From Chaetoceros tenuissimus (taxonomy: Eukaryota; Bacillariophyta; Thalassiosirophyceae; Chaetocerotales; Chaetocerotaceae), in the NCBI GenBank assembly GCA_021927905.1, contig BLLK01000046.1:1178001-1242000 (forward strand): DNA of 64,000 bases, given 5' to 3'. Positions 4,544 through 52,946 of this stretch are shown here, one piece after another. How positions within the stretch are numbered: the first letter of the stretch is position 1; every line of letters begins with the position of its first letter. Both the position numbers and the translations under genes were made by a program. The notes beneath the pieces were generated by a model, which saw nothing but the letters and a program-made list of their open reading frames with translations, did no database searches and was not told the origin of the DNA.

Positions 4544-7500
4544 TTAGAATTTTCCACCCTTCTTCATACCAATCTTGCCTGTCTTTGCCTTACTCCTCGC
4601 AGCACCAGTACCTCCTCCAGAGAGCAATCCACCTCCCTGAGCAACTTGCTGATTCATTGTAGCCTGTTCTTGCTCCATCCATGCAAAATTCTTATGCCGA
4701 GCAGCACGTGCCTTGTCGTCTTTGCGTTGCTTTTCCTTTCTTCTTTCGCTTTCAACAAATGCCGCATCCAAGCGGAGTTCTCTAGATACAGCTTTATGTT
4801 CACGTTTATATTCTCTTCGAAGCCTATCTTTCTCCGCTTGTTCTCTACTCTTATTCTTGTCCTTTGCCATAACATATTTCGTTGGATCCTCCATTCGGGG
4901 AGCAAGTGTTTTGATAGCAAGTTCACTTGCTCTTGCTGTAGATCTGCGACGAAGAGGTTCACGAGCTTGTCCATCCTGCAATAATTGGCTCATTACATTT
5001 GCAGTTTCTTGAATCTCCTCAGCTATTGCCTCTGGAAATTTAGTGGCTTTAGAAGTTGGTTGCAGCCTCAAAAGAGCACGAGAAATTTGATCAAATGCTT
5101 CTGCTTCTGCAAAATTTAACTTTCCAGAATAAGTTTCCGCCATTTTTCGCACTAAGTGCAAAGCTACAACTAATGTACTAGCCTTACTTGTGTCGCTCTG
5201 CATTACTTCGCGCTCGAGGGAAAGATTGAAATCCTTTTCACTCGAAACAATTACATCAGACCTTAGATCCTGAAATTCTTCTATTTTTCCAACCGAGGCA
5301 AATGTAGGTATTGGGGTCATCCTTGAAGCTTCATCAATATCTTCGGCGAATAAGTTGATTGTACCTGCAAGGAAAGCAAGAGCTTCTGGAGCCAATCTAT
5401 TAGCATCTTTTGTGTTCTGGCACATTAGAGTTGAGCAAAATAGCCCTTTCATTACATCTTCTAGAGATCGTACAGGACTTTGGCCAAGTATTTGACCCAA
5501 CAATAATAATGCAGGAGTTGCTACAACATGCCGTAAATCTGTCATTGGGAATATATGCCCTGCAGCTCTAAGTAGTAGAAGGGTACCAGTTGAAGGCCAA
5601 GCTGTAAACTCTTCCTCAGAATCTAATCCAAGAAGCTCGGAGTCGCGAAGGCGTTTTGCATGTGCATTTTGGAAAATACCTAATCGTCTCCCCCAAACAG
5701 CTGATGCGCTATCAGGAGCATCCTGCGCCATGTTATAAAGTGTCTTTGTCAACTCATCTAACTGACTATATCTACCTAATTCATCCCCTCCATTTCCACC
5801 ACCATATAGAGCATCTCCAACTCCGATGAAGCGTTTTAGCAAAACATCGTAGTAATTTTGCATTTTTTCCTTATTTCTATGATCCAATCTGACTGAATTC
5901 GAAGTATGGATACGTTGAATAATTAAACTGGCATCAGCACCAGTTGATGCATGAGTTGCGATCATATCACCAAGTGCTTCCAGAGTAGTCGGTACTTCAA
6001 AGACATATGGGATTTCAGCGCTTTCAAATAATGAAAGAAAAGGTCAGTGTCACAGCCGATAAATGATTACATTGGTAATCCAAACAACACACTTACATTG
6101 CCTTTTGTTTTGCTTTTTGGCGCTTATTTGTAATTGCTGCGAGTTTTGCTTTTTTCTCTTTTTCTGCTGCCACCTCGTCAGAAGTTTCCTTTTGCTTACG
6201 AACATTTTCTGGTCTTACATCTGGCTCAATGTCACCATCATCGTATTCAAGTTCGTAAAGGGTGTTTCCTCTTTCATCTTCATAGACTTTTTTGACAGTA
6301 CCTTTGTACCATTTGCCTTTGGAACCCATTTGCTGGTCTGCCATATACTTTCCTTTAATTTTGGTTCCAACTTCATAAATGACATCTTCAAGTTCTGATT
6401 CTTCCCCTTCCGATAGTCCATCGTCTGATCCTACGGAAGCATCATCATCAGAATCACCGAGATCATCGCTGTCCTCATCCTCGGAACTTTCTTCTGGAGT
6501 CTCATCATCATTTTCTTCATCTTCTCCATATTTCTTCACAAAATTACCGTGCTTATCGACATAGATCAGACCATCTTCAGTGAATTTCTGTTCAAGTTCT
6601 TCATCATCGCTATCAGAATCGGAGTCCAACTCGTCAGGATTTCTTTCTGCACTCTTCTTCTTCTTTTTGTCTTTCCTTTTCTTTTTCCCTTTGCGACCTT
6701 CATCATCACTAATATCGGAGAAGTCATCATTCTCAAAATCACCATTCATACGAGCAAGACGTCTAGTTTCCAGCTCTCTCAGCTTTTCAGCTTCTTCCTT
6801 GGCGATTTCTTCCTCAGTCTACGAGTGAAAAATCACGTTAGTGCATTGAACTAAAGAAAGAATGTATTGAACAAGCACTAGAATGAAACTCACCTTGGTA
6901 CGATCAGTAGCCTTGACCTTTCTTTCAAAAAGATACCCCTTCATTTCCTTTTCCCACTCATCCATTTCCTGATCTTCTTGTGATAAAGTTCCAGCTTTCT
7001 TTGCTTCAAAGTGAGCTTTACGGTCCTTTTCTTTATCTCTAAAGTTCAACAAAGCAGCAAGTTCTTTAAAGTTTTCATCAAATTCTTCAAACATCTCAGC
7101 CTGTTCTTCTTTATGCTTTGCCTTTTCAGCCTTTTCATACTTCTTTCGCATGATTAAATCTTGCAATTCTTCCCTACGACTTCTATAACGATCTCCCAGA
7201 CTTTCACCTTGAGCACCACCAGAAGGTCCATAAGGGTTCGAAGCTGCTTGCTTGACACGTTCTCTATCAAAAGCTCCTCCACCGAAATGCAGTTCTGTAT
7301 CAGCACGCTCCAATTGCCCTCCATAGCGTTCTTCATCATCATCTGATAGAATAACATCACCAGGTTCAATCTTTCCCGTATAAGTATCATCAATCACTTT
7401 ACCACGATGTGTCAACTCCATCCCCTCATTATCATCATCTAAAGAAAATTTCATGGATTTCTTACTACGATGCGCACGCTCTCGTACCATTCTCGCCATC

Positions 7501-11386: not shown

Positions 11387-14300
11387 TCAAGTTGAAGAGT
11401 TGGAGTTTGTGCACTCCCAGTCAGCAACACAATCCAAAATTAAAGGAGCTTCGGTGGAGTTAATGCGATAAACAGCAGGAAATTTATCACTGCAAATTCC
11501 ATCCGCCCAAGAACCTAAATTTTCAACAAGAGTAGCATTTTTCCACGTTGGATTTCCAATTGAAAGAAGACAATTTTCATTTGAACCTTTGTTGTCAGGT
11601 TCACCAACATACCAATTTTCAAAGTCAAAGGGGGTAAGATCTTCATGCACAAAGACTCCTTCTTCTTTTGAGTCAGTACCAGAAATCCAAAAGGCTTCGT
11701 TTGGATGTTGATTATACAATTCTCGTCCTAAAGTCTCAGTAATATAATCATTGAACTCCGCACTATGAATTGATATCAAATGACCTCCATACTCCTGAGC
11801 TTTTGATTCATGCTCATGGTAGCTCATGAATTCCTTATTTGCACATGCATAGCATGGATACTCATTGAATGCATTACAGTCTCCACTATCATATCCGCAC
11901 TCGATATTGTTGTATTCTAGTTGACACAATCCGTTCCCGAGGTTCTCTAGTGCAAAGTCAACATGGCATTCAGGATACTGGTCGACAATGCAGTCCTGGT
12001 TGTCATATCCGCATTCAATGGAATTGTATCTACCGTTATCACAGACTCCATTTCCAATCTTTTCGGGGTAGTCTACATGGCAGTCAGGGAAGTCTTGTAC
12101 AATACAGTCGCCTTGGTCCCAGTTGCAGTTAGCTGTGTTGTACTCGCCAAGGTCGCATACACCGTCGCCTAAGCGCAATGGGTTATCGACATGACAGTCA
12201 GGAAGACCTTGTATAGAACATTCGCTCTGATCAAATCCGCAGTCCAAAGTATTACACAAAGGATCGCATTTACCATTGCCCAAAAGTAGTGCGCAAGCTT
12301 CCATACATTGGGGAAACCTCTGTGCAAAGGTTACATTTTCACAATCTCCTCCATCAAACATGCAGTAAATATTATCATACTCATTGGTTGTGGTGACATC
12401 ACAGACTCCATCGCCTAATCTGTATGGTTCGGTAGCTCTGCAGAATTCGGATAAGCTTAGACTGTTGTACTCATCGCAATCTCCTTGATCCCAACCACAT
12501 GCTAATGTATTATAATCTCCTCCATCGCACTTTCCGTCACTTAGAAGACTTGGATTTGTGACATTACAATTAGGCCTCCGGTCTGCGAAATCATAACCAA
12601 GGCAGTCCCCACCATCCCAACCACAGAAACTTGTATCGTATTCTTCATGATCGCAGATCCCATTTCCTACTCTCCATGGATCGGCAACATTGATACATTT
12701 TGGATATTTTCTATTGAAAGTAAGGCAATCACCGCCATCGAAGCCACATTGAAGAGTATTGTATGGTTTACCATAGCATTGTTCATCTGAAACTTTGGAA
12801 GGGTCAGGTACTTCACAAAGGGGGAATCTCGTGTTGAATTCATTACAATCTCCCCCGTCGTATCCACATTGAGGTGTGTTGTAATCTCCATCACAAACCC
12901 CATCATAGATTTTAGATACATCAATGGATTTCGGCATGAAATTGTCATCGAGAAAGCACAGTGGATATTTCTGCCTGACGTATGTCCCATTGAATTGACC
13001 AATAACTACATAGAGCCAAGCTGTAAGAAGTGCAAAAAGCAGAACATGGACTGATAAAGTTTTAATGAGATATCCTTTCCTCCATGCTTTCCTGGCTTTA
13101 TCTATGAAACTTCTTGAAAGGTCAGCTTAGTTATCTAGCTCATCATCGAATATTATGATTGGAACGTCTTCGGCATTTAAAGCTCTCGACGCAAATTTTG
13201 ATCCAAAGTAGCCTATGAATGAGAGTAATAGGGCGTTATGTGTATATGTTCATTAAAAAAGTCTTTATAAACATGAAATGAAAAAAACGTACCTCTTTTT
13301 GAAATGATGAAAATGATATTATCTATGTACAAGTAACAAAGTACAACGGAAAAAGACGTGAGGTGCATGTGTCAGTATGCATATTGCAAAAATAAAATAA
13401 GTCATCTTACCTATGTATGATATGATGAAGAGTGCTGTGAAATCCTTTAGAAGATCTACAACATCATTACTTTGAACAATTACAATCCACGATGCAAGTA
13501 GAACTACCATACCTTGACTAAACTTTAAGAAATTTGGAAATAAGACTCTCATCATCCACACCATGCATGTCTTGTCGTTTTGAGAAATGCGAAAAGTCTC
13601 TTCCCACGGATTAGGTCCATTTAAGCGTAGAATTACTGGTATTCTAATGACATTGAGAACATCTTCTTGAATGTAAACGGCTACGATAATAGCAAGTAAC
13701 TGCACTACTCGAACAGATACTTCTGCATGAACTGGAATGCCCAACGCAGTATCACCAAGCTGATTTGAAACTGTTTGTACAGCAATTAGCGTTTGAAATG
13801 CAAATGTAAAGAAACCTAAGAACCAATCTCTACTCATGAAAGTTTCTGCAAGCATCATTAGAGTGTAAGTGTCGTGGTCGAGGTAGCCAAGTGATTTCAC
13901 ATATTTGTTTCGCTTAAATAGTGAATCATCTCGCACATTCTTTCGTTTCTTCCTTGGACCTTCGTCGTCAAAATTAAAAATTGTACTACGTCCAAAATTA
14001 ACTACACTTTTGCCTAGATTGTTCATGGTAGCATTATTGTTGGATTCTGGGTTTCGCATTGAATCAATGTCGCCATTTATAATTGGTCCACCTAACCATT
14101 CCTCTTGTTCTTGTGCGATGCTTTTATGTTGTTCCAGAACATTCAAACAAGAAGACGACAGTGGTGTACCATCACCGTTTTCTGTTTTCTCATATACATT
14201 CCCATCGTTCAAATCAATAACCATTGACGAATTTGGAACATATGCATTTTTGGTCTCGATGGAAATACCAGATCTTGAAAATCTATCATCTAGCCATTCT

Positions 14301-32203: not shown

Positions 32204-33058
32204 TCACCCATTTCCAAAATCGGCGAGGAAACACGATGGAAGCATATCTTTTGCCAAGCTATTGCAGATATCAGCACCAAGTGAAATTTGCGGCTCTTTT
32301 TGTTCAGTTTCATTACATTTAGTAGCATTCCTATTGGGACGTGACCATGGTTTCATATCATATGAATGGAAAGCTGCGCAGAGAAGTTCTTCTGCAGTTG
32401 ATGAATATTGGAGATCATCTTCAAGAAGAATGTCTTTGAAGTTATCGTAAAAGACCTTTGTTGCGGGAACTTCGTCTGGACTGCTTTCGCTTGAAAGTGG
32501 ATAACAAATGCATTCTTCTGCTATATCAACGAATTCTTTGCTCGGCATAATGGTCATGCCTTCGACTCGGGCATAGCCACTTTTCAATTCGAGTACATTT
32601 GCACAACATGCATAGATGTCAAAAGTCTGAACTGCTACTGTGCCAGGAATACTATCCACGTCAACAATAGCAGGTGCACCAGTCTCTTTCCATATCCACC
32701 TTTTTGTGTCGTACTTTTGTTGCAATGTAATCTCAGAGTAGTAGTTCGCATCTGTTTCATTTTCAGCAACGTCATTGTAAAGTAGTATGGATGGTTTTGA
32801 TCGACGTGCTGTTGCTAGAGCTAAACATAGCCTCTTCCCTTCAGGATCGTTTTCTAATTGCTGGGAACTTCATCTTAAAATCTCCCGAGTCATTCACCAA
32901 ATTATCTTCAGCTTCGAATAGAATGGATTGCTGAACATTATTTGAATCGTTTGACTTTTGCAAATTCACATTGGGAGTTCGAAATAGAGAGATCATATCA
33001 ACCTTTCCAATCAAATTTATGTCACTTCTATAGCCATAAATCTTAACAGTGCCTCCAG
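32204..33058 (-). pseudogene. Decayed relative of the novel domain of the zinc-finger gene at 81
   Basis: Read on the minus strand, ~280 codons align with residues ~95-345 of the protein at 81-2525. Matching blocks are GGTVKI/GGKVHI, LFRTPNV/LFRSPNV, PEGKRLCLA/PEGARLCLS, WKETGA/WTETGE and EGMTIMPS/EGMTLVPS. About half the residues of the best 37-residue block are identical by eye. The frame changes once near 32850-32880 and a stop stands before the start of the homology, with no ATG. It has no zinc fingers. The copy abuts the stop of the nuclease-helicase gene. A true gene with a very short intron is possible but less likely. Confidence 0.7.
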
Positions 33059-36000
33059 CTATATTGTGAATATCACATCAATAGCAAAAGCACTAAAACT
33101 ATGCAGCATTGGGGAGGATTTTAAAACTTCTCTCATCGTCTGAAATTTCTTTTTGGATCCTCGAGCAGTAGAATATTCTCTCCATTTCACCACATTCCCA
33201 TCATTTGAATGTTCATCATTAGAGTCTTGGATGCTCCAACAATCACAACGTCCACTTTTCTTTCCATAGTTTTGCACACAAATAATGACACCTTTGTCTT
33301 CGTATTGAGAGCTCATAAAAGATGACAATAATTCATCTGAAACTTTCTCAGAAACAAAAATACGAAGACTATCTTCAACCCTGCTACTAACGATACCAAT
33401 ATTTTGCTCATTGGAAAAAGACAGAAGCCTCTCTCGAAAAGGTTTCATATCCAAATAAGATTCTTCGTAGTCGATTTTGACAGGCTCGAAAGAAGCAAAG
33501 TAGGTTGAGTTTCTTTCGGTCTTTAGCGAATATTTGTGCCTGTCTTTGTCAAGAATTTGCTCAAGGTGAAACTCATTGATAATTTCACCCTTGATATTGA
33601 CCTCATTTCCTGCTTTATTCTTGCCCCTAGTACTCTGTGCAGGGAGCTGTACGATTCCATCCTGAAACATCCAAACTTTAAAAATACGGAGGGCCATTAG
33701 TTTTGATAGAGACATAGTTCTGGGTGGATTATTCATGATGAGAGCATGTGAATCCAGTTTGAGATATTTTCCAATTCTTTCGCGTAGATTATTTCGTATG
33801 GATAAAATTCTTATGATTCTAGGGTAGCTAACGCTATGTTCCTTACAAAATGATCGTCTGCTATTACACATTTCAAAGTCAAAGAGAAGGTTCATCGTAC
33901 TAAAGATCTCCGAATATAGCTCTCCATCAAAGATAGATTTACTCACGTAGACGTTAGTAAGAATATCTAAAAAGGGAAACTTGTTGAGATGAATTCTGCA
34001 GAAATAAAGAAAATGAAAGGACTGACTCGTTCCACTTACCATTGAAAACCTCTGGTTCTTGCAATATTGCTGTGTCGTGGTAAATTTTAATTAGAGGGTG
34101 TTCAGTGAGAAATTAACACCCTGAAGAAATTTTACTTACCATTTGGTAGAAGCCAAGGCGATTTTGTAAATGAAAGTATCGCTGCCATTTCAATAGTTTC
34201 TGGTAGTAGGTTGAAGCGAATACCTAGTCCAACTAATGAAGCAATGGCATGATCAATACCAAGTGTTGCTACAAACCTACCCAGAGAAGTGATTTGAAAA
34301 TTCTCACACGCGTCTGAGATAAGATTTCTCTGGTAAAGACTAGTGAAAGAATTCTGTATCTGTTCAACTCTAGGCGGCTCTATACATTTCATTAAAAGCT
34401 GTGATATGTTTTCCTCACTCTCCATAATTGTCTTCATGTTAAGGATGACAGAGTCCAGTGGACTTCGCAATATTTCACCTTCATCAAAAGGGATGAAATA
34501 ATTTTTGAATGCATACCTTGGATATAAACGATAAACATGGCCTTCCCTACATCTTCCAGTTCTACCTGCTCTCTGGACTGCAGATGCTCTTGAGATCCAA
34601 GTAGTCTCCAACATTTGACGATGACTTAAGTCGTTGTAAGTAATCGCCTTGCACAATCCGAAACAAATGACAGTGTTTACATCAGGAAGAGTAATACTAC
34701 TCTCAGCGGCATTAGTTGCGACAATTACCTTCACCTCATTCCTTTGTGCTATATCAAAAGCGTTCATTTGATCCTCGAAAGGAATATCAGAATGAATTGG
34801 AATAACTCTGTAGTGAATATCGCTAACGATAGTATCAAACAAATCTGTGATTTCGATAATATCTTGCATTCCAGGTACAAACACCAAGATTGAAGTGCCT
34901 GGTACTCCTACCTCTAGTACAATCTGAACTGAAATCTCGTACAAGTTTGTCATATATTGCCTATTTGGGGCAGAAGTGCATTTTGATTTGAGACATTTGT
35001 CTGTGATACTTCTTAGCATATCTCTCTCCTGCTTTTCAAAATTCAACTTTTGTGCAATATCATCAGAAAAGTATTCATGAATAGCATGACAACGGACGCC
35101 AACAAAAATAGGCGCTTTTGTAACACCAAAGTATGAAGAGTACCGATTCGCTGCGACGGTTGCAGACATTAATACTAATTTCACTGAGGGATTTGAGTCA
35201 AGGAGTCTCTTGGCAAGAAGACATAAAATATCATTCTCAATAGAACGTTCATGTACCTCGTCCTATGGAACAAACAGTGCAAGATTAAGGAATGAAAGAA
35301 TAGTAGTTTGCTACCTACATCTACCTAAAAGCACTTACAATAATCAAATGCGTAGCATCACGGAAGGAGTCTAAATTGTTTGCAAGATATCGCACTAGAT
35401 AACCAGTGGTACAGAAAAAACAACAAGTATCATCAGAATGATATTCTCTAACTCCATGACCCATTCTTAAACCAAAGAAGTTTCTCAGTTTTGGTTCGAT
35501 ATCTCTTACTCGTTCAGTTAGAGACTTTGCTGCGATTCGCCTAGGCTGCGAAACAAATAATTTTGGTTGTACCACAGATTCAGCCTGTTGTAAGCTTTCA
35601 AGGAGCATAATCGGGACACGTGATGATTTACCACAGCCTAAAACGAATCGTGAGTATTTTTTGTAAACAATGTCAAGTATTGTAGTGGATATCTTACCTG
35701 TTTCACCCTGAATGATTGTTACCCTGTTTTCCTCAATAGACTTCAAAATTTCGTCTCGATGTGCGTCGATAGGAAGTACCTTTCTCTTCACTTCAAGTTT
35801 GGGAGTTGAACTAGTTACATCATCAAGAGAACTGTCGTTGGTAACTTGTAACGATTCACTCGTCTCTATGAGAGCATGGTAGAAGTATTGATGGTCAAAG
35901 ATATTACTTGGTAATAAGAAGTGATTGGCATCTACATATTCTTTCCCCCGATTCCTCTTGAGAACTTTTTGAATAGACTTTTGAAATACTTCACTAAGCA

Positions 36001-37711
36001 TATATTCATGCCATGATAACTTTGCGGGAATATTCTTTGCATTTACACGCATGTCACTCCTATCCATCATTGTATCAAGTGTGCTACGAAGGAGGTCACT
36101 CAGATCTTCTTCATATATTTGCATTTCATTAAAAGTCTCCATGATCCGGGACTTTACACAAAGACTATCATCCTCACCAGATCTAATAGATTGACGCATC
36201 AGGGTCTCATCTAGTGCTTTGACATGATTGTCCATAATACTACTATTGTCACCTGTCAATCCATAAGATTGATCCAAGTGGTCTCCATCTTCATCGACAA
36301 TATACTCTTTTATCTCTTCCAATTGGTAAAGTTTTCTTGAAAATTCAATACTCATCTGCTGCTCATAGCTTTCACTTTCGACTTGATATCTATTTAGCTC
36401 CAATAGGGCATCGATAACATCTCGTACTTGCAAATTTGTTTTCTTCCTTTTTTCTTGTATTATATCGGCATCTTGGAAAAAGTTGACACATTTTCGTAAG
36501 TTTGGATCATTCATGAAGTTGGTGTAGTCATTTCCTAATAGGATCGCTGCCTCCACAAGTAAGTCTTCTTCAATATTAAATTCCTTTGCAATTTTGTCTC
36601 GAGTGATTATGCATCCACAAACTTGTTCTTCATCAATTACTAATGTATCTAGAGGAACATATTGCACATGTAAATCACCAAGTGACGAAAGCGGATGATT
36701 CTTCTTGAATCCAAAAATAAGAAAATCTGAGTCTTGTGCAACAGCATAAGTTTGATTCGATACATCCAATGCAGATACCAATGCCACATCTCTATCTGCT
36801 TCACTCTCACAATCAATGACATTCAAATGACCTGCTTCTGAAACATTTTCCTTGGAAAGATTTAACAAAGTATTATGTACTTCTTGAAATAATAGAGTAG
36901 GCGTCGGAAACTCGTCTAAAAATATAGAAGCACTTGGGATAGATATTGAATTACCCCTCCGTGATCTTTTCGATCGGAATGAGGTTGGTAGAATCCTCTT
37001 TTTAAAGAACTTTTGAAGTGCCTTTTCATGTTCATATCTCGCGGTATATCTCTCGGCAGATGTGTTTGCCTTGAAGAAAAAGTCATATGTTTCAATTTCT
37101 TCTTCTTCCTCTTCTTCTGTTGCACTCTCTTCTTCATCTGATACTGATGCAATACTTGGTTCTATATCTTCACTCTCGTCTTTTTCTACTACATGAAAGT
37201 CTACTTCCTCTTGTAGAATGTCAGGATCTACAATTTGACTCATTTCATTCTGAGCCTCAATCTGTTCCTCAAACTCAAACTCCTCCATAATAAAAGATTC
37301 ATGTTCAGTTTCAACTTTTGCTTCTCCTTTCTCTATTGGTACCTTCACAACAGATCTCTTTCTCCCGTCAAAGTAAATATCAAGATGAATACCGTGTTTA
37401 CATCTGAGCAAGTTCACAAATTGACAAGTCTCATCATGTATCTCTTGCAAATGAAGCATACTTGGCAAAAGATGCATAATGACATGTACATCATCTTCAT
37501 ACAAAGTCTTATTCGCCATGACATGTGCATAATGACGCATATAAGCTTTTCGAAACAAATGAAATACTAATCCTGATCCATCGATAGCAAACGTTGAACC
37601 TCTTGGAAAGTCTTGGTAAGGAATGGAAGAATACATTTCTCCCGTTTCTTCATCGTATGTCGGCAATAGATTGCATTCTTTGAGGCAAGATGTGAGGCCC
37701 TTCACACCCAT
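33059..37711 (-). CDS. FEN1/XPG-type nuclease fused to a DEAH-box helicase
   Basis: The model is 37711..35698, 35637..35339, 35262..34140, 34069..34036 (or 34040) and 33995..33059, about 1,468 residues. The N-terminus MGVKGL starts an XPG-fold nuclease with every acidic site present: D44, D115, E302/E304 (ESEAD), D327/D329 (QDSD) and D395 (LLGNDYT). An acidic insert splits the fold at ~140-215. From ~650 a full DEAH helicase follows: GETGCGKSS, QPRRIAA, DEVH, MSAT, FVPGMQDI, TNAAESSITLPD and QRAGRTGR. Helix-ratchet and OB-type C-terminal parts (FCKEHSVSY) come last. Intron 35638-35697 (60 nt) lies inside the Walker A motif. The last two introns are less certain, and the final one would be only ~40 nt. 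A nucleic-acid unwinding-and-cutting enzyme is inferred. Confidence 0.85.
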
Positions 37712-38109
37712 ATCCTTGTAATATATAGCTCAAGTATCCTTCAATGTTGTAGCTCTTTATTTCTATAAAGCTCTCTCCTTTGAGTATGTAAATATTTTCG
37801 GATATCAATCACCTTTTGGAATCATCAAGACAAGAAATTGAAGAAAAATGGTAAAAAAAAACATTTTTCCCCTTTTTCTGGATTTCCCGCTCGCTTTTTC
37901 CCCTCTTCTTCTTATGTAGAAAGGTCGATAGCTCTTTTAAAAAGTTCTCATTTTTCCGAAGTGATAAGGAGGAGGAGAGCACAGAGCCGTACTAAAACCG
38001 TTCAATAATAGGAAAGTAGGTAATAAAGGGATACGAGTAAGCGGGTCCACACTACCTCACTATTTACTCATCATTTGTATTCATTTTGAAATCCGCAATA
38101 GACCTGAAT
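37712..38109. promoter_or_regulatory. Divergent promoter region
   Basis: About 400 bases lie between the nuclease-helicase gene and the receptor-like gene. Homopolymer A and T/C runs occur around 37850-37925. I see no gene or clear element. Confidence 0.4.
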
Positions 38110-39315
38110 ATGGAAGAGAAATCACCAGATCATGATAGGATTGCATTCTCAAAGACGGGTATAATTTTGCCTGCAATTAGTGGTACTATTTCCTTTCTAG
38201 CATCATGCCTAATAATGATTACGATTCTTAGATCAAAGCAGAACACAAATTACCACAGGATCATTTTTTTCATGAGCTTTTGGGATGCTTTATCCTCTTT
38301 CTCTATCTCACTGACTACGTTGCCTATGCCATCTGATACAGTATATAATTATGCCGGTCCTAGCTTTGGAAACAAATATACTTGTCAAGGCCAACAAGCA
38401 TTCATCATCATTACGTCAGTTGCGATGGTTCTACTCTCGAGCGTCATGCTGAATTCATACTATCTATGCATCATGCGATATCATGTATCGAATGCCAAGT
38501 TTCGCAAATATGCTGAGCCTATTTTCCTACTGCTTTCAATACCACTTTCATTGACTGCCCCGATATACTTGGCGAGAAAGGAGATGTTGAACCCAACAAT
38601 ACATGAATCTTTTTGCAATGTCGATGTATATCCTCATGAGTGTCTCCAAGATAATTCAATCGAATGCATACGAGGTGATAGATTGGGTATAGATATGAAA
38701 TTCCTTTTTTCAATAGCTGCCATTGTAGAGATTGCTATATTGACTGTTTCCATGGGTCTAATAGTGCATACTTCCTGCCAAGAAAAAATTTTAGAGACAA
38801 AGAATGTAGCCTCACAAGCTTTCATGTATCTCTTTACGTGCATATTGACATGGGGCTTAGCCGCAGTAAACACCATGTTGCAACAAGAAAACAAAGTGAT
38901 AGTTATCTTGACTTTTATATTCTTTCCACTGCAAGGTTTCTTCAATCTGCTGATATTCATGTTTCACAAAATATACACATATAAAACGTTCAACCATGTT
39001 TATTTTACCATGGATGTTGTCAAAATGTTCTTTGTGAGCCCAGAGCAATTTCAAGATCAGTATGTGTGTGGTATTGAAAATGTAGAAAGATTGTTCGAAT
39101 TGCGAAAATTTGAAGAGTTGAAATTACAGAAGGAAGTAAGCCCTGACGCTTTTTTTGAAGAGAACAATATTTCTAATGCTTTAGAACGTACTCCAGAAGA
39201 AAAGGAAGACGAAGATATGGTCAAAAGTGCTGATCTATCAGTGCAAGTCGGTGCTGCATACGAACCTGCCAGTTTGTCAGAGTTTTGCGAAGAGAAATTA
39301 AGAAAAACAACATGA
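38110..39315 (+). CDS. Seven-transmembrane receptor-like protein 1
   Basis: The product has 401 residues from ATG 38110 (the codon at 38086 is TTG). Seven hydrophobic helices are visible: IILPAISGTISFLASCLIMI, IIFFMSFWDALSSFS, FIIITSVAMVLLSSVMLN, PIFLLLSIPLSLTAPIYL, FLFSIAAIVEIAILTVSM, AFMYLFTCILTWGLAA and ILTFIFFPLQGFFNLLIFMF. Cys residues before helix 3 (YTCQGQQ) and in the second outer loop fit the usual GPCR disulfide. The C-terminal tail is acidic. The layout and the FFPLQGFFNLLIF helix match the gene at 50889-52415 (CVPVQGLFNILIF). Ligand unknown; a GPCR-like sensor is inferred. Confidence 0.72.
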   Translation: MEEKSPDHDRIAFSKTGIILPAISGTISFLASCLIMITILRSKQNTNYHRIIFFMSFWDALSSFSISLTTLPMPSDTVYNYAGPSFGNKYTCQGQQAFIIITSVAMVLLSSVMLNSYYLCIMRYHVSNAKFRKYAEPIFLLLSIPLSLTAPIYLARKEMLNPTIHESFCNVDVYPHECLQDNSIECIRGDRLGIDMKFLFSIAAIVEIAILTVSMGLIVHTSCQEKILETKNVASQAFMYLFTCILTWGLAAVNTMLQQENKVIVILTFIFFPLQGFFNLLIFMFHKIYTYKTFNHVYFTMDVVKMFFVSPEQFQDQYVCGIENVERLFELRKFEELKLQKEVSPDAFFEENNISNALERTPEEKEDEDMVKSADLSVQVGAAYEPASLSEFCEEKLRKTT

Positions 39316-44000: not shown

Positions 44001-45182
44001 TTAATGCTCATAACCATATGAGTCTACTGAAGAATCAGCAGTGGCTCTTTGTTTATATTGCAAGAGACTCAAGTCGAAGAAGCTTGTAGAACAATCATCT
44101 TGCAAATCAAGGCTATCCCCCTTTGGACCTTCTCTTGAAGAATCGTCATAGGAATTTTCAACGACAGCATCGTCGTCTTCCTCCCCTTTCGTACCTTTGC
44201 GCTGAAATGCGTAAACCATGGCAGCAATGACAATAGTAGCCGATGAAACCATTAATGCAGTCATATAAGTAGGAAGTCCTCCACCAACAGGTTTATCAGC
44301 AGTTTGACCAATGGGCTCGTCTTCAGATTCAGTTGATCCTCCCAAAATTTCGGGATCATTTGGATCTAAATATACTAGTTCAACAATATTTTCATTCACT
44401 TGAAGCAGTTCATCACCGTCCATTGACTTTTCAATTGCAGCGAGTGCATTGTTTTCATAGTCATTTACTTCCAACCGTCTTTCTTCTGACGAAGAAATGA
44501 ATAAACCTAATCTTCCTTCCACAATGCTACACGAAGCTCCACAGAATGAACTAAATTGATCCATTGGCAATGATGTAATTCCAACAACTTTACTATCGAA
44601 ACTAACATCCGCTTCATTGTAACTTTGACATGAAGAAAAGAACCCTGCATCATTTACTACCACATTACTTATAGCAGTGTCAAGGTCCATGATTGGTTCA
44701 TTGACATCTGCATTTTCTTTGTAAATCATTTTGTAAAAGTATTTAATGGTCATTTTCTCGTTCGTTTCTACACCAAAGACATCACCATTCAGTTCACATG
44801 GCTCTACCTTTATTTCTGTGGGAGATTCAGTTATGATTTGATTTCTATCTACTATGGGTTGTTTTGTCGCGACGAACGTTGGCTCACTCGTCGGGCTTTG
44901 AGTTGAAATTGATGGAGTGAATGACGGGCCATGTGAAGGACTCTCTGTTGATATCGTTGGCAATTTTGTTGGACTTTTTGTGGGCATGGATGACGGCTTT
45001 TGCGATGGAAATGATGATGGTACATCTGTTGGCGAATTGGTCAATAGAATACTTGATCTATCATCATCATCAAATTTTAACACATCGTCATCCCAGAAAT
45101 GTGTTGCATCCACAGAAGCTGATAAAAATAACCAGAGGCATGTGTAAAGATTTAAATTATAATTGCCCCTCCTCGTTTTCAT
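44001..45182 (-). CDS. SPT/PS-rich single-pass membrane protein
   Basis: The product has 393 residues. Residues 1-27 are a signal peptide (LYTCLWLFLSASVDA). Residues ~48-110 are a Ser/Pro/Thr array with SPTDVPS, PSQKPS and SPTKLPT units, a type of low-complexity stalk common in diatom surface proteins. A central Cys-containing domain of ~170 residues follows, with an EERRLEV basic site. Then come one transmembrane helix (YMTALMVSSATIVIAAMVYAF) and a short acidic cytosolic tail with several Tyr/Ser. A cell-surface or silica-deposition-vesicle location is possible. No known enzyme domain is seen. Confidence 0.75.
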   Translation of the reverse strand: MKTRRGNYNLNLYTCLWLFLSASVDATHFWDDDVLKFDDDDRSSILLTNSPTDVPSSFPSQKPSSMPTKSPTKLPTISTESPSHGPSFTPSISTQSPTSEPTFVATKQPIVDRNQIITESPTEIKVEPCELNGDVFGVETNEKMTIKYFYKMIYKENADVNEPIMDLDTAISNVVVNDAGFFSSCQSYNEADVSFDSKVVGITSLPMDQFSSFCGASCSIVEGRLGLFISSSEERRLEVNDYENNALAAIEKSMDGDELLQVNENIVELVYLDPNDPEILGGSTESEDEPIGQTADKPVGGGLPTYMTALMVSSATIVIAAMVYAFQRKGTKGEEDDDAVVENSYDDSSREGPKGDSLDLQDDCSTSFFDLSLLQYKQRATADSSVDSYGYEH

Positions 45183-45528
45183 TCTTCAAAGCTCTAGAAT
45201 CTTGATGTATTTGTTGATTTGTCAGTCAATTGGATACTTCTATTTTGCATTTATTGCATAGTATTGGACGAAGAAGTGATGTAAAATCTCAATTTAAAAT
45301 TTTCATTCTTGGCACAGACAGAAATCATGTGCCAAACAAGACTGTCTCATCCAATACATAAATGAGCTAAACGTGTTATGAACTACCAAGTCAACAATGA
45401 TAAAGAAACATGGATGAGAGATCGAGCTTCTATTCTTCTTTTATCTATTTTACACATCATCACATTCATCACTTCTTGCCCAACTCATCACTTGAACAAT
45501 AAATTTCCTACTCTAAAAGTCTATCACC
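45183..45528. promoter_or_regulatory. Divergent promoter region
   Basis: About 350 bases lie between the SPT/PS-rich gene and RAD2. A short direct repeat GGCACA/GTGCCA-type pair around 45313-45335 is the only structure seen. No gene. Confidence 0.4.
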
Positions 45529-48500
45529 ATGGGAGTAAAGGGGCTATGGCAGCTTCTTTTACCAACAGGTCGAAGAATCAGTGTTGAAACCTTACAAGGC
45601 AAACGCCTTGCGGTTGATGCTTCCATTTGGCTCACACAATTTCTCAAAGCGAATCGCGATCCTGAAACTGGAGCAGTGAGAGCTAATGCTCATATTATCG
45701 GTTTCCTACGAAGGATATGTCGATTACTTTATCATGGAATACGACCAGTGTTTGTGTTTGATGGGGCTACTCCAGAGATCAAGCTTCGTGAGATTCGTGC
45801 TCGTAGAGAAAGAAGAGAAAGGCTTCAGTCTTTCAAGGGAGATAATGACAATGAAGGAGTCAAACGTCTAGCAAGAAGGATTTTAGTAGCTCAGTTGAAA
45901 AAACAAAAGGAGCTAGAGAAGGCAGAGGGTAAATTAGACAATGGAAAGTCAGTGAAAGATCCAATGAAAGTGCTCAAAAATATGCATAAAAAGAATCTAA
46001 AGAGCACAGGTGCATTTTCGTCCGGTTTCAACCTTCCAGGGGAAGAGGAGGATGGCAATGCCAGTGAAGATGATGTTCAACAAAGTATAGAAATTGAAGA
46101 AGATGACAAAGATGATGAAGAGGACGACGAAATTGATCATGATGTTTTGCTAGTTCCTAGTCCAGATAAAAAAGATGATGTTCTAGAACTTTCAGACTCG
46201 GAAGATTATTTGCAATCTTTGACAAAAGAACAACAACAGACCAATAATGACTGGGACAACGCCATTGCAGCAGCTGAAAGTGATAGCGAGGAAAGCAATG
46301 AATCAATTGAACTTCAAGATGGAGAAAATTTGGATGTCGAAGCTCTTCAGAGTCTTCCTACAAAAACTAGAGTTGATGTCATTGAGAAAGCTAGAAGACA
46401 ACAACGTATGAATAGTAGAAAAGAATTCATGTCTGTGGCTGCGAATCCTGATTCATATTCACAATGTCAACTGCGGAACTTCCTCAAGTCTGCCAACCTA
46501 AACAAAACTGTACATAAACTTGGTAAAATAGTTGCGATGAAAGGAGAAGATGGACAAGAAGGAGAGAGAATTGCATCGGATGGAACAAGACGCTTTATAT
46601 TCAAAAAGGACGAAGAAAGTGATGATGATGAAATGATTGTCAGACAACAGAGAAAATATAATGAGCAAAAGAGAAAAGCAAATGCTGCTCACGAAGAAAG
46701 AGTCCAAAATAAGAGTTCACCAAGAAAGCGTTTACGACAAGCTTCACATAGGAACAACGATAGTGATGATGATTCCATTTTATATGAAGGACCAAAAGTG
46801 AAAAATGTCGATTTATTTGATGATGATTCAGACAGTGATGGTGGTGGTTTCATTGTACAAGTTCCCGAGCAATCTAATACCCGGATAGGAACTAATAGAC
46901 ATTTCACAATTGCATCCAGCGACGAATCTGACTGTGATAGTGGTAAAGCCGGTTTCATTATGCAACCACAGCAAGAGGAAAATTATAGAAAAGAAATATC
47001 AAAACTTCAAACTCAAGCCAAGGCGACAACAACAGAAACAATTGACTTGGCTTCTAGTGATGATGAGAGCCCTGAAGAAAATGCAGGTCGATTTTTATCA
47101 AAGTTGTCACGAGAGGACCATACTTCAAATCGCGACCCTATAACTCTTGAATCTAGCAGCGACGATGATGAAGGAGGCGGCTTCATTCAGAAAGAAGAGG
47201 CGGAGGATGCTGAAGAAGAGGGTGGCGGTTTCATTCAAGAGTCTGAGACACTTTCGAATCCGAACATAGATTTCACTACTAAAAATTCTCCCATCCATAT
47301 TGCATCGATCGAAGAAGAAGAAGGCGGAGGCTTTATTCAAGCTGAAGATACAAACAATATCGATGATACCGTCAAAGCTATAGAACAGATTATTTCATCT
47401 AACCAAGAAGTACATAGGAAAGACGGGTTGTCATTTGTCGGAGAGACAGAGATAACTAGCAGTGAGCTCAGAAATCAGTCAACCATTGAGAGTGCGGCCA
47501 ATCCCAAATCAAGTATTGCATTAAGTGATGAAGGTGATTCGGATGACGAAGATGACATTGACTGGGAAGATGGTGATGACGATGACAAGCAGATGGACAA
47601 TTTAGAGGAGACTGATAGTAACATATGCATCAAAACACCAGCAGATGTCCCTTCTGCAGAAGAAAAGACAAGTGTGGAATATCCCGATGATATTTCAATT
47701 GAAGTTGCTTCTGAAGAATTGACAGAGTCGAAACATAGCCATAATGATATCAAGGAAGATAGTGACAGTGATGTAATTTGGGAAGACGGAAACGACTTTA
47801 GTAGTAAAGCAAAAGAAGATGCAAATGCAGTAGCTTTGAAGAATGCACAAGCAACAGCAAGCCATTTGACAGATTGGGCTGGTAGGGCGGTTCAAAGAGC
47901 TATCAAGGCCCATCTTGCGGAAACAGATAATCAGCATCAATCAGAAGACAGTCCCAGTGATGATAGTGATAATGATAACGAAGATGAAGATAATGACGGT
48001 GATGAAATACTTCAAATAAATAATGGTCCAAACAAAACACCAGAGGAAATAAAGTCAAAGATTTCAAATGAGGATAAAAAGGATGAAATGAAATCAACCG
48101 ACATTGAGACTGTTGAAGAACCAAGTACAGAGGCATTTATGAACACCAGCTTAGAAGCATTGCAAGAAGAAGATGCCATGATGAGAGAAGAAGAAAATAG
48201 AAGAGAAAGAGACATGGATCAAGTTACTGACGAGATGATCGAAGAGGTGATGCAATTACTTCAGCTTTTTGGCATACCCTATCTTCGAGCACCAGCTGAA
48301 GCGGAAGCCCAAGCTGCTGAATTAGAAAAATTGGGATTGGTAGATGGGGTCGTAACAGAAGGTAAGATTGTTCTCCTGCTCTTACTACTTCTTGTTGTTT
48401 TGCAGATCCAACATGCCATGATAATTACAGATAGTGATGCTATTGTATTTGGCAGTAGAAATGTCTACAGAAATATTTTCGAGGATAAAAAGTATGTGGA

Positions 48501-49113
48501 AGTTTACATGTCTTCCGACTCAGAATCCATCGGACTTGGATTAAACGAGAAAATTGCTTTGGCAATGTTATTAGGCGGAGACTATACAGAAGGAGTAAAG
48601 GGTGTGGGTATAGTCAATGCCATGGAAGTTTTAAAAGCCTTCCCTGTCTCCACCTCTGTCGAAGAAGGTTTGAAGGAATTTCGAAAATGGCTCGACGGTT
48701 TTGAATTGGAGGATAAGGAAGATGAAAACCCAGCGATTGCAGAATTTAAGAGAAAGCATAGAACTGCCAGATCAAGATGGGTTGTACCAAGAGAGTTCCC
48801 AGCGAAGCCAGTGCTACAAGCATATTCAAATCCTGTAGTGGATAGTTCAAAGGATGCATTCTCATGGGGATTACCTGATCTTGAGGCATTACAAGTATTT
48901 TGCCACAAAAAGATGGGTTGGGAAAAGAGCGAAACGGATCACGCTATTGTACCAGTGTTGAATGAAATGAAGAAAGGACAGAGACAGACTCGTCTAGATG
49001 GATATTTCGTGATGAAAGCAGAAGATAATATCAAGTTCGCTGATATTAAATCAAAACGTCTTCGAGAGGTATGGAATCTCAAGAAAGACTCGAATAAAGA
49101 TGAGAAGCATTAA
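45529..49113 (+). CDS. RAD2/XPG-family structure-specific endonuclease
   Basis: XPG/Rad2 makes the 3' incision in nucleotide-excision repair and contacts TFIIH. A 69-nt intron (48362-48430) has no stop in frame; with it removed the product has 1,171 residues. The N-region starts MGVKGLWQLL, with D30 in LAVDAS and VFDG near 80. A long acidic spacer (~residues 180-880) follows. The I-region has AEAEAQAAEL, then TE-DSDAIVFG joined across the intron, and LLGGDYTEGVKGVG with the helix-two-turn-helix. The tail holds a QTRLDGYF motif, which resembles a PIP-box (PCNA-binding) sequence. The length and spacer fit XPG/Rad2, and not FEN1 or EXO1. The spacer repeats an acidic-(G)GGFI motif. Confidence 0.9.
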   Translation: MGVKGLWQLLLPTGRRISVETLQGKRLAVDASIWLTQFLKANRDPETGAVRANAHIIGFLRRICRLLYHGIRPVFVFDGATPEIKLREIRARRERRERLQSFKGDNDNEGVKRLARRILVAQLKKQKELEKAEGKLDNGKSVKDPMKVLKNMHKKNLKSTGAFSSGFNLPGEEEDGNASEDDVQQSIEIEEDDKDDEEDDEIDHDVLLVPSPDKKDDVLELSDSEDYLQSLTKEQQQTNNDWDNAIAAAESDSEESNESIELQDGENLDVEALQSLPTKTRVDVIEKARRQQRMNSRKEFMSVAANPDSYSQCQLRNFLKSANLNKTVHKLGKIVAMKGEDGQEGERIASDGTRRFIFKKDEESDDDEMIVRQQRKYNEQKRKANAAHEERVQNKSSPRKRLRQASHRNNDSDDDSILYEGPKVKNVDLFDDDSDSDGGGFIVQVPEQSNTRIGTNRHFTIASSDESDCDSGKAGFIMQPQQEENYRKEISKLQTQAKATTTETIDLASSDDESPEENAGRFLSKLSREDHTSNRDPITLESSSDDDEGGGFIQKEEAEDAEEEGGGFIQESETLSNPNIDFTTKNSPIHIASIEEEEGGGFIQAEDTNNIDDTVKAIEQIISSNQEVHRKDGLSFVGETEITSSELRNQSTIESAANPKSSIALSDEGDSDDEDDIDWEDGDDDDKQMDNLEETDSNICIKTPADVPSAEEKTSVEYPDDISIEVASEELTESKHSHNDIKEDSDSDVIWEDGNDFSSKAKEDANAVALKNAQATASHLTDWAGRAVQRAIKAHLAETDNQHQSEDSPSDDSDNDNEDEDNDGDEILQINNGPNKTPEEIKSKISNEDKKDEMKSTDIETVEEPSTEAFMNTSLEALQEEDAMMREEENRRERDMDQVTDEMIEEVMQLLQLFGIPYLRAPAEAEAQAAELEKLGLVDGVVTEGKIVLLLLLLLVVLQIQHAMIITDSDAIVFGSRNVYRNIFEDKKYVEVYMSSDSESIGLGLNEKIALAMLLGGDYTEGVKGVGIVNAMEVLKAFPVSTSVEEGLKEFRKWLDGFELEDKEDENPAIAEFKRKHRTARSRWVVPREFPAKPVLQAYSNPVVDSSKDAFSWGLPDLEALQVFCHKKMGWEKSETDHAIVPVLNEMKKGQRQTRLDGYFVMKAEDNIKFADIKSKRLREVWNLKKDSNKDEKH

Positions 49114-50888: not shown

Positions 50889-52415
50889 TCAAAATTTTGG
50901 TACCTTGACACCTTTGTACACATTGCATTCTGCCTGTTCATCTTCTTCAAAGCCATCTCCTGATAAATGAAAGCAGTTCGAGATACGGTCATCTCCTTCT
51001 AACGTGATTGATACTCTTTCGTTTGATGAAATGTGCACACAATGAGATTCTACAATGTCATTCATTTCCTCATTGTTGGATTCGCATTCTTCCACCTCGG
51101 ACCTAATCCCATCATTCAAAAATACATTTCCCACATTTGACTTTGGACCTCTATCAGATGCAAAGTTATCAACATTTGAACTCTCAGAAATTATCAAATT
51201 GGAATCCCCACCATGTTTGAATACTAGCCAAAATGCCATTCCCCAAGAAAGATTTGGATACTTGTGTTTCAGCACCCGAGCATCTGGTCGATTGAATATA
51301 AGTATGTTAAAAAGACCTTGGACTGGGACACAAAATTGAACCCAATAGTATTGTATCTTGTGAGGTTGTTTGTTTGAAAATATTTGCAAAACAAGGATTG
51401 CGTACAAGATATATGAAACGAAGAAGGCTAGACTGTAGGATACAAGTTGAAATATCATTTCTCTCCTATAGGAGTTTGGAGGAAGTTGGTGCCTTGACGA
51501 CCCATTTCTCAGTGCTTGTGGTTCCAGAGTTGATGATTGAGTCTAAAAAGAGATGGTATTCATGTGAGAAAACAATTGGGCCTGAAAATACACATTTTGC
51601 CATGGACTTACGTTATTATCAAGAGATCTCGTCCCTACCGCATGGATTGTATGGTTACTTCTTGGCGGTAAAACACGCTCACGCCGTAATATTTTACATA
51701 AAAGAAACGAAAGGACCGTTATGATGATAGCCAAGCTTAAAAATGGGATGATGACTGCAGTAACAACGTTTAGTAGAAGAGCAGGCATCATATTCGCATC
51801 ACACTCTATAACATCCATAAACCTACAGTTGGTAGGAGTGGCTGCATATGTGCAAAGAGTGCCACTTGTTGCACTATTTATTGCATTCATGACCAAGGCA
51901 TATGCGTTGACGATAACAATAAACCCAAGTATGAAAAAGTGGGCTTTCATTTCCACTTTGCGAAATATTTCATCTTCTGACATGTTCCTATGCAGTTTAC
52001 AAAAGTAATAGAATGCTAGCAAAGGAGAATACAGGAGAACTCCTGTAGCTCCGACTCCTAGTATTAACCCAGAAAATGTACAGAAAGGTTGACTGCCCAG
52101 ACTCCAATGCGAATGATTCGTAGCAACTGCAAATGGTCCAACAAGGCTTCCGAAAGATTGTAACATGTCTGATACACTAATGGAGAAAATAATTCTTTTG
52201 TATGCAGAGTTCTGAAGAGTCCTCGTTCGTCGAAGCTGGTCTGTGGCCCTTGATCTATTCGTGCTACTAGTACCACTACCTGTTCCACTGCTAGCCTTGT
52301 TGTGCAACAACGTTGTTCGTAGAATCACAACCACAAGGGCTGTTGATGCTATGAATGAACTCGAAGCCGCAGTGAGCTGCAGTGAAGAACCTATCACCCA
52401 TCGTGGATCGTGCAT
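50889..52415 (-). CDS. Seven-transmembrane receptor-like protein 2 (two exons)
   Basis: The model is 52415..51612 and 51542..50889 with a 69-nt GT-AG intron (51543-51611), 485 residues. Five helices lie before the intron (for example SSFIASTALVVVILRTTLL, LILGVGATGVLLYSPLLAFYYF, AVIIPFLSLAIIITVLSFLL) and two after it (FQLVSYSLAFFVSYILYAI, FCVPVQGLFNILIF). The intron falls in the third inner loop, which is Ser/Gln-rich. The helix order matches the gene at 38110, and both end with an acidic tail. GPCR-like by shape only; no ligand or G-protein motif is certain. Confidence 0.72.
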
Positions 52416-52946
52416 TGGGATCTTTCTAAAGAGTTACTTGTACAATTATGTGAGATCTAATGGAGGGAAATGAAGTTTGTTCATGTACCTAGTAGGCTTC
52501 TCCAACCGTAGCAGGCTGATGGAGAGTTCAAGAGTTAAAGTAGTGAAACGGAACGCGGTCCTGGATTGCGGAGAAGTGAGAAACGAATAAGTGAATCGAA
52601 GCTTCGCGGGGGAGCAAATGAAAAAGGAAAACTTTATTCTAGTTTAGTGTAATTTCGGAGTTTCTTCTTCCCGTATACGACAAATGCTCAGATTTGAAAG
52701 CTGATGACGTACTTAGTACGTACTACGTACCTACTATCATCCTTCTTCCCACTCTAGAGACAAGCAAGAGAGAAAAGTGACCATCTAAACCTCCGCGTGC
52801 TCCGTAACAGTTTGTGCAAACAAAATGAATGTGATACATACATACAACTTGAACAGAATATTTCTCTGTTCTGCATATATTTACTGAATGTTACGAGAAA
52901 TACTTGATAGAATCATATCATGACCTGATCATCAGCTTTGTCAACC
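52416..52946. promoter_or_regulatory. Divergent promoter with ACGTAC palindrome
   Basis: About 530 bases lie between receptor-like gene 2 and the OB-fold gene. TGACGT overlaps a perfect inverted repeat ACGTAC-TTA-GTACGT (52707-52721), followed by another ACGTAC. It lies ~225 bases before the plus-strand ATG. Confidence 0.5.

Follow-up and report, generated by a model that had tools for sequence, protein, structure and literature searches.

In the diatom Chaetoceros tenuissimus we find a gene that very probably encodes, in a single frame, a fusion polypeptide predicted to consist of an XPG-like nuclease at the N-terminus and a DEAH helicase at the C-terminus. The gene begins with the ATG at 37711 of a 64,000-nucleotide stretch of contig BLLK01000046.1 (positions 1,178,001 to 1,242,000 of the forward strand, assembly GCA_021927905.1). 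This whole stretch is referred to below as the window; its numbering is used throughout, and all features of the fusion gene lie on its minus strand. The host is a eukaryote and the gene is nuclear. The further proposal that the single chain with both modules works by an unwind-and-clip mechanism seems to us, judging from the sequence, evenly poised.

The one-frame fusion is supported by the uninterrupted exon 1 (35698-37711), which carries the nuclease as well as the first part of the helicase. Its codons 1-671 run through the nuclease, an acidic insert and a linker into the helicase and end halfway through the Walker A motif (GETG). No stop occurs among these 671 codons, whereas the other five frames contain 32-70 stops apiece, and the chance of such an open stretch, estimated from base composition, is about 2e-20. 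The two modules share an exon because intron 1 (35638-35697; 60 nucleotides, GTAAG...TTTTAG) sits within the helicase rather than between the domains, dividing Walker A between GETG and CGKSS. Being 60 nucleotides long, this intron could in principle be read through in frame; we rejected its retention, as Walker A would be broken. Exon 2 (35339-35637) supplies the remainder of Walker A and motifs Ia and Ib, and intron 2 (35263-35338; 76 nucleotides, GTAAG...CATAG) ends shortly 5' of DEVH. An earlier interpretation, hereafter the sequence-only reading, had proposed both the fusion and these two introns. All three proposals hold: coding bias runs throughout exon 1, both introns have the form GTAAG...AG, and their removal restores motif I and leads into motif II. 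Exon 3 (34140-35262) encodes DEVH, SAT, motifs IV-VI and the region after the RecA pair. Downstream of it we recognized two additional introns, intron 3 (34070-34139; 70 nucleotides, GTAAG...ACAG) and intron 4 (33967-34039; 73 nucleotides, GTAAG...TTTTTAG), which are less certain than introns 1 and 2. They lie on either side of a 30-nucleotide exon 4 (34040-34069), the least certain of the exons, and are followed by exon 5 (33059-33966), which encodes the helicase C-terminal region down to an in-frame stop at 33059. With four introns, each GTAAG...AG, this conservative model yields a spliced product of 1457 residues instead of the approximately 1,468 suggested before.

To assess coding potential, we took 17 further long open reading frames from the window (hand-picked and not validated as genes) as the training set for a codon-usage score, which we compared over all six frames in 180-nucleotide segments. 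The exon 1 frame is the best of the six in all 15 segments lying wholly inside exon 1, the inter-domain stretch included (scores -0.01 to 0.59). The same is true of exon 3 in 8 of 8 such segments and of exon 5 in 6 of 6. Segments straddling introns are mixed, and two of them, 35371-35192 and 34291-34112, lean slightly to a plus-strand frame. Beyond the stop at 33059, a different minus-strand frame scores best in two segments (33091-32792), after which the original frame returns in the next five (32851-32192). This suggests that the fusion gene extends past 33059 to about 32204 via two frame changes, through a probable coding continuation of 75 codons in a different frame (32847-33071) and a probable C-terminal continuation of 221 codons (32204-32869), the latter ending 144 nucleotides from the stop of a convergent neighbour. 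Thus, 33059, taken previously for the end of the gene, does carry an in-frame stop but is probably not the true end, since the coding signal shifts frame and then shifts back, reaching about 32207. When searched separately, neither continuation piece had a Pfam match, and the 221-residue piece had a single PDB match, with an E-value of 1.3. A scan of 33330-32190 for donor sites reading GT[AG][AT]G, GTAAA or GTATA gave one match, at 33279, and none at the frame changes. Errors in the sequence, introns of an unusual kind or genuine decay could each account for the frame changes.

These two unexplained frame changes close to the 3' end, with no matching donor of the scanned forms, count against the single-chain reading. 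They also lend some weight to the idea of an annotation or assembly artefact, in which two adjacent genes or a degenerating gene would only seem fused. We nonetheless regard such an artefact as highly improbable. A single open exon of 671 codons, with coding bias throughout, spans the nuclease and runs into the helicase, and intron 1 falls within the helicase and not between the domains; a two-gene reading therefore requires an internal promoter within an open exon.

As the sequence-only reading had claimed, the DEAH motif set of the helicase is complete, including DEVH and SAT: motif I is at residue 669, Ia at 702, Ib at 748, DEVH at 772, SAT at 804, IV at 898, V at 953 and VI at 1001. Two Pfam domains are matched above their cut-offs, DEAD (E 1.7e-10; 41.3 bits against 26) and Helicase_C (E 8.4e-16; 58.6 bits against 23.5). 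Among the best 60 of 64 PDB matches, DHX29 comes first (E 1.9e-68), followed by DHX36 (6.7e-61) and RNA helicase A/DHX9 (5.9e-60); further matches include the dosage compensation regulator MLE (9.1e-59) and, in 13th place, Spindle-E (8.4e-55), while Prp43-type enzymes rank lower, at about 1e-48. The rank of these PDB matches, taken by itself, suggests that the helicase belongs on the DHX29/DHX36/DHX9 side of the DEAH family. The alignment with the Prp43 sequence reaches residue 590 of the query, beyond motif VI, and the Pfam scan lists no HA2 or OB-fold domain. The fusion shares motifs I-VI with DHX29, DHX36, DHX9 and Spindle-E, which give its best sequence matches among the solved structures listed. 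Those helicases have other RNA-binding extensions as their N-terminal parts and are not known to carry a flap-type nuclease there.

The evidence for the nuclease consists of a set of acidic residues at family positions together with weak profile matches that agree with each other. The nuclease region (36467-37711, approximately residues 1-415, with approximate borders) starts with MGVKGL and has seven acidic positions filled. In the N region, D44 (37580-37582, in AIDGS) aligns with an Asp of an XPG protein encoded in the same window, and D115 (37367-37369, in YFDGRKR) is placed by motif alone. An acidic insert of residues 131-215 (37067-37321), 40% of which are Asp or Glu, separates the N and I regions. 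Further on, E304-A305-D306 (36794-36802) aligns with the E-A-E of Rad2/XPG, followed in the I region by D327 and D329 (36725-36733, in QDSDF) and D395 (36527-36529, in LLGNDYT), all three aligned with Rad2/XPG. The matched columns of both Rad2/XPG profile alignments include E304, D306, D327, D329 and D395. The sequence-only reading had listed D44, D115, E302, E304, D327, D329 and D395 as catalytic. All of these residues occur at the positions given and seven acidic positions are indeed filled, but the middle pair should be read as E304/D306 rather than E302/E304, because in both alignments the family E-A-E falls there and E302 (36806-36808) falls on a proline. Having E-A-D in place of E-A-E is normal for bacterial Pol I-type 5' nucleases and for ASTE1.

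Several profile searches point to the same family. With the nuclease part as query, archaeal FEN-1 ranks first in the PDB (E 0.006) and fen_arch first in NCBIfam (E 0.0027), and Pfam XPG_I is matched with an E-value of 0.012; the FEN-family matches in all three collections span the same residues, approximately 280-440. Comparison by hhalign with two Rad2/XPG cores gave a P-value of 1.2e-4 and a probability of 54.5%. With a hidden Markov model (HMM) of the same two cores, residues 1-480 scored 8.8 bits, against 7.2 for the top of 5000 shuffles. When this HMM was run over the 82 frames of at least 100 residues in the window, the exon 1 frame ranked second, the true XPG being first.

Other results weigh against the nuclease assignment. 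In NCBIfam the row after fen_arch is aEF-2, surely an unrelated elongation factor, which is nearly as good (E 0.0051). The XPG_I matches of 16.4 and 15.2 bits are below the Pfam gathering cut-off of 24.9 and rank after Spo16_C (E 0.0078), and XPG_N was not detected in the Pfam scan of the nuclease part. A PHROGs search gave no FEN-family match, its only result being a RusA-like resolvase (E 0.21). Over the 82 frames, the exon 1 frame scored no more than 7.1 bits (E 0.012) with the Rad2/XPG HMM, and an unrelated frame of 111 residues reached 5.7 bits. After GNDYT we saw by eye no glycine-rich turn and recognized no helix-two-turn-helix (H2TH) signature, and the hhalign alignment is gapped there. 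Finally, AlphaFold models had a predicted local distance difference test (pLDDT) score of 33.9 for exon 1 alone and 35.4 for residues 216-480 aligned with the XPG of the window, the alignment behind the latter model misaligning the E304 stretch. The low confidence of these models arises from a lack of relatives to align. Consequently, the XPG fold claimed by the sequence-only reading is upheld as far as the residues and the weak concordant profile matches go, but not by structure prediction. The concordance of these matches and the acidic residues, rather than any single decisive score, support a remote and divergent nuclease of FEN/XPG type (PIN-like) in the N-terminal part.

Divergence of this extent makes it necessary to consider whether the module has lost its activity and become a mere platform for binding nucleic acids or proteins, attached to an ordinary DEAH helicase. 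The large acidic insert, the strong divergence from nuclease families and the absence of XPG_N from the Pfam matches would all fit such a platform. On the other hand, seven filled acidic positions would hardly be expected to survive drift, and we consider an inactive module improbable.

The relationship of the predicted nuclease to FEN1, XPG and Rad2 is one of shared order and differing detail. The MGVKGL start, the two N-region Asp residues, the acidic pair, DSD and G-DY follow one another as in these enzymes, whereas the fusion differs by its sub-threshold matches, E-A-D instead of E-A-E, the acidic insert, the lack of a recognized H2TH and the attached helicase. It can be rejected as the XPG of the cell: a separate gene on the plus strand at 45529-49110, about 8 kilobases away, encodes a clear orthologue of XPG/Rad2 (E 6.1e-75 to yeast Rad2). 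Similarity between this orthologue and the nuclease of the fusion is marginal (E 0.20) and spans the MGVKGL start and D44. Taken together, the separate orthologue and the marginal similarity indicate that the superfamily has in the fusion a further, divergent member. As a separate observation, the open frame of the XPG orthologue runs through an apparent in-frame intron between residues 944 and 965.

It is also possible, if somewhat doubtful, that the fusion is an RNA-control protein. In that case its N-terminal domain would be of the ASTE1/Mkt1/FAM120 class, some members of which take part in mRNA control, and would trim, cut or only bind RNA, with the DEAH part acting on RNA like DHX29 or Spindle-E. 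The I region, SEADRD...DSDF, which resembles that of ASTE1, agrees with this possibility, as do the unrecognized H2TH and the fact that the top helicase relatives, Spindle-E among them, are RNA helicases. At the same time, no asteroid or Mkt1 family is found among the 13 Pfam families listed up to an E-value of 0.5. PMC12345631 groups Mkt1, ASTE1 and FAM120 into a proposed XPG-like class whose members have an N-terminal domain resembling XPG and a long C-terminal half. The fusion has the same general layout, and its I region is of the SEAD type seen in this class; however, it is without a Pfam asteroid or Mkt1 domain, and its C-terminal half is a DEAH helicase that replaces the Mkt1-type one. 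The same paper mentions that ASTE1 and FAM120B have been reported to act as nucleases and in DNA repair, and membership of the class would therefore be compatible with DNA cutting.

Next to these comparisons, we searched for relatives of the fusion. Scans of viral contigs with residues 1-470, with the helicase exon and with residues 216-480 (six short peptide patterns each) found no relative, nor did scans with the XPG of the window (six patterns) and with the Rad2/XPG alignment (two patterns). Such scans reach close relatives only, because the peptide patterns are few and short; even the conserved XPG matched nothing. A degenerate EADRD...DSDF pattern, in which only GAA was allowed for the first Glu so that about half of the codon space fell outside the scan, matched 6 viral and 18 prokaryotic contig stretches. 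None of them resembles a FEN I region by eye, and 5 of the 6 viral stretches are one out-of-frame match repeated in five contigs. A tblastn search of residues 1-470 against phages gave no match. Pfam XPG_I had no match in the one bacterial genome searched and matched 4 of 14 control genomes, these four being archaeal. No relative of the fusion, and hence no support from conservation, thus came from the viral, prokaryotic and phage collections, which speaks against it, eukaryotic proteomes, where relatives would be expected, being outside these scans. No family closer to the fusion was found in PHROGs or NCBIfam. PADLOC gave two weak matches to the helicase region (E 0.0043 and 0.0067), which lends no support to a known anti-phage system. 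A literature search for an XPG-DEAH fusion or for its nuclease family returned no description among the titles and abstract beginnings of the best-ranked matches. As far as the viral and prokaryotic collections and the literature were searched, XPG/DEAH is a new domain pairing within a known kind of helicase-nuclease.

A few other features of the window deserve mention. The proteins at 38104-39312 (plus strand) and 51546-52433 (minus strand) are related, aligning over 148 positions with 29% identity (E 3e-09), and both have, by eye, the look of seven-helix membrane proteins; the former has no Pfam match up to an E-value of 0.5. In the open frame at 11390-13126 (minus strand), a C-type lectin domain is combined with two Notch LNR stretches, an arrangement of animal-like appearance. 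Two long open pieces on the minus strand, 8000-6822 and 6818-6096, are in the same frame and separated by a single stop codon (6819-6821), probably owing to an intron; Nop14 is matched by the upstream piece, 8000-6822, and by a further minus-strand piece at 6043-4547. A repeat protein of PTKSPTKLPT type is encoded at 44004-45185; judged by eye, it agrees, like the short introns, with a diatom origin.

If the two modules do act together, the polarity of the motor offers a hint as to how. DEAH helicases translocate in the 3' to 5' direction after loading on a single-stranded 3' tail. The helicase of the fusion might likewise load on the 3' tail of one strand, and its 3' to 5' movement would free the partner strand from its 5' end. 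Where single- and double-stranded nucleic acid meet, this would give rise to a splayed arm or a 5' flap. The freed 5' end, being the substrate type of flap nucleases, could then be clipped by the XPG-like domain. Likely targets would be RNA, RNA:DNA hybrids or strands bearing G-quadruplexes, with motor and cutter kept together as they are in Dicer, Dna2 or WRN. The sequence-only reading had likewise suggested that unwinding could be coupled to cutting, perhaps in repair, RNA decay or defence. Unwind-and-clip would be the most likely action of the fusion because the polarity of the helicase yields the substrate type of flap nucleases. What PMC4344499 says of DHX36 cuts both ways: it binds the 3' tail of its substrate, in line with the proposed loading, but it is also called non-processive, which goes against the mechanism.

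It is tempting to speculate, albeit tentatively, that the fusion represents a previously undescribed class of single-chain helicase-nucleases, in which a 5' end is peeled off by a DEAH motor of the DHX29/DHX36/DHX9 kind and cut by the XPG-like domain. Such an enzyme might be an algal counterpart of Dicer or Dna2 in layout, acting on RNA, R-loops or G-quadruplexes. Dicer, Dna2, WRN and archaeal Hef also combine a motor and a cutter in a single chain, but their nuclease folds (RNase III, PD-D/ExK, DEDD and XPF) and helicase families are other ones. Eukaryotes widely possess both DEAH helicases and flap-type nucleases. These can meet on R-loops, G-quadruplexes and RNA ends, but as separate proteins that need to be brought together. 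A natural fusion, if true, would reveal a pairing of nuclease and helicase kept by selection and would offer a one-chain system for probing whether helicase and nuclease polarity are coupled. Should other algae share it, the fusion may turn out to be a lineage-specific enzyme of repair or RNA decay.

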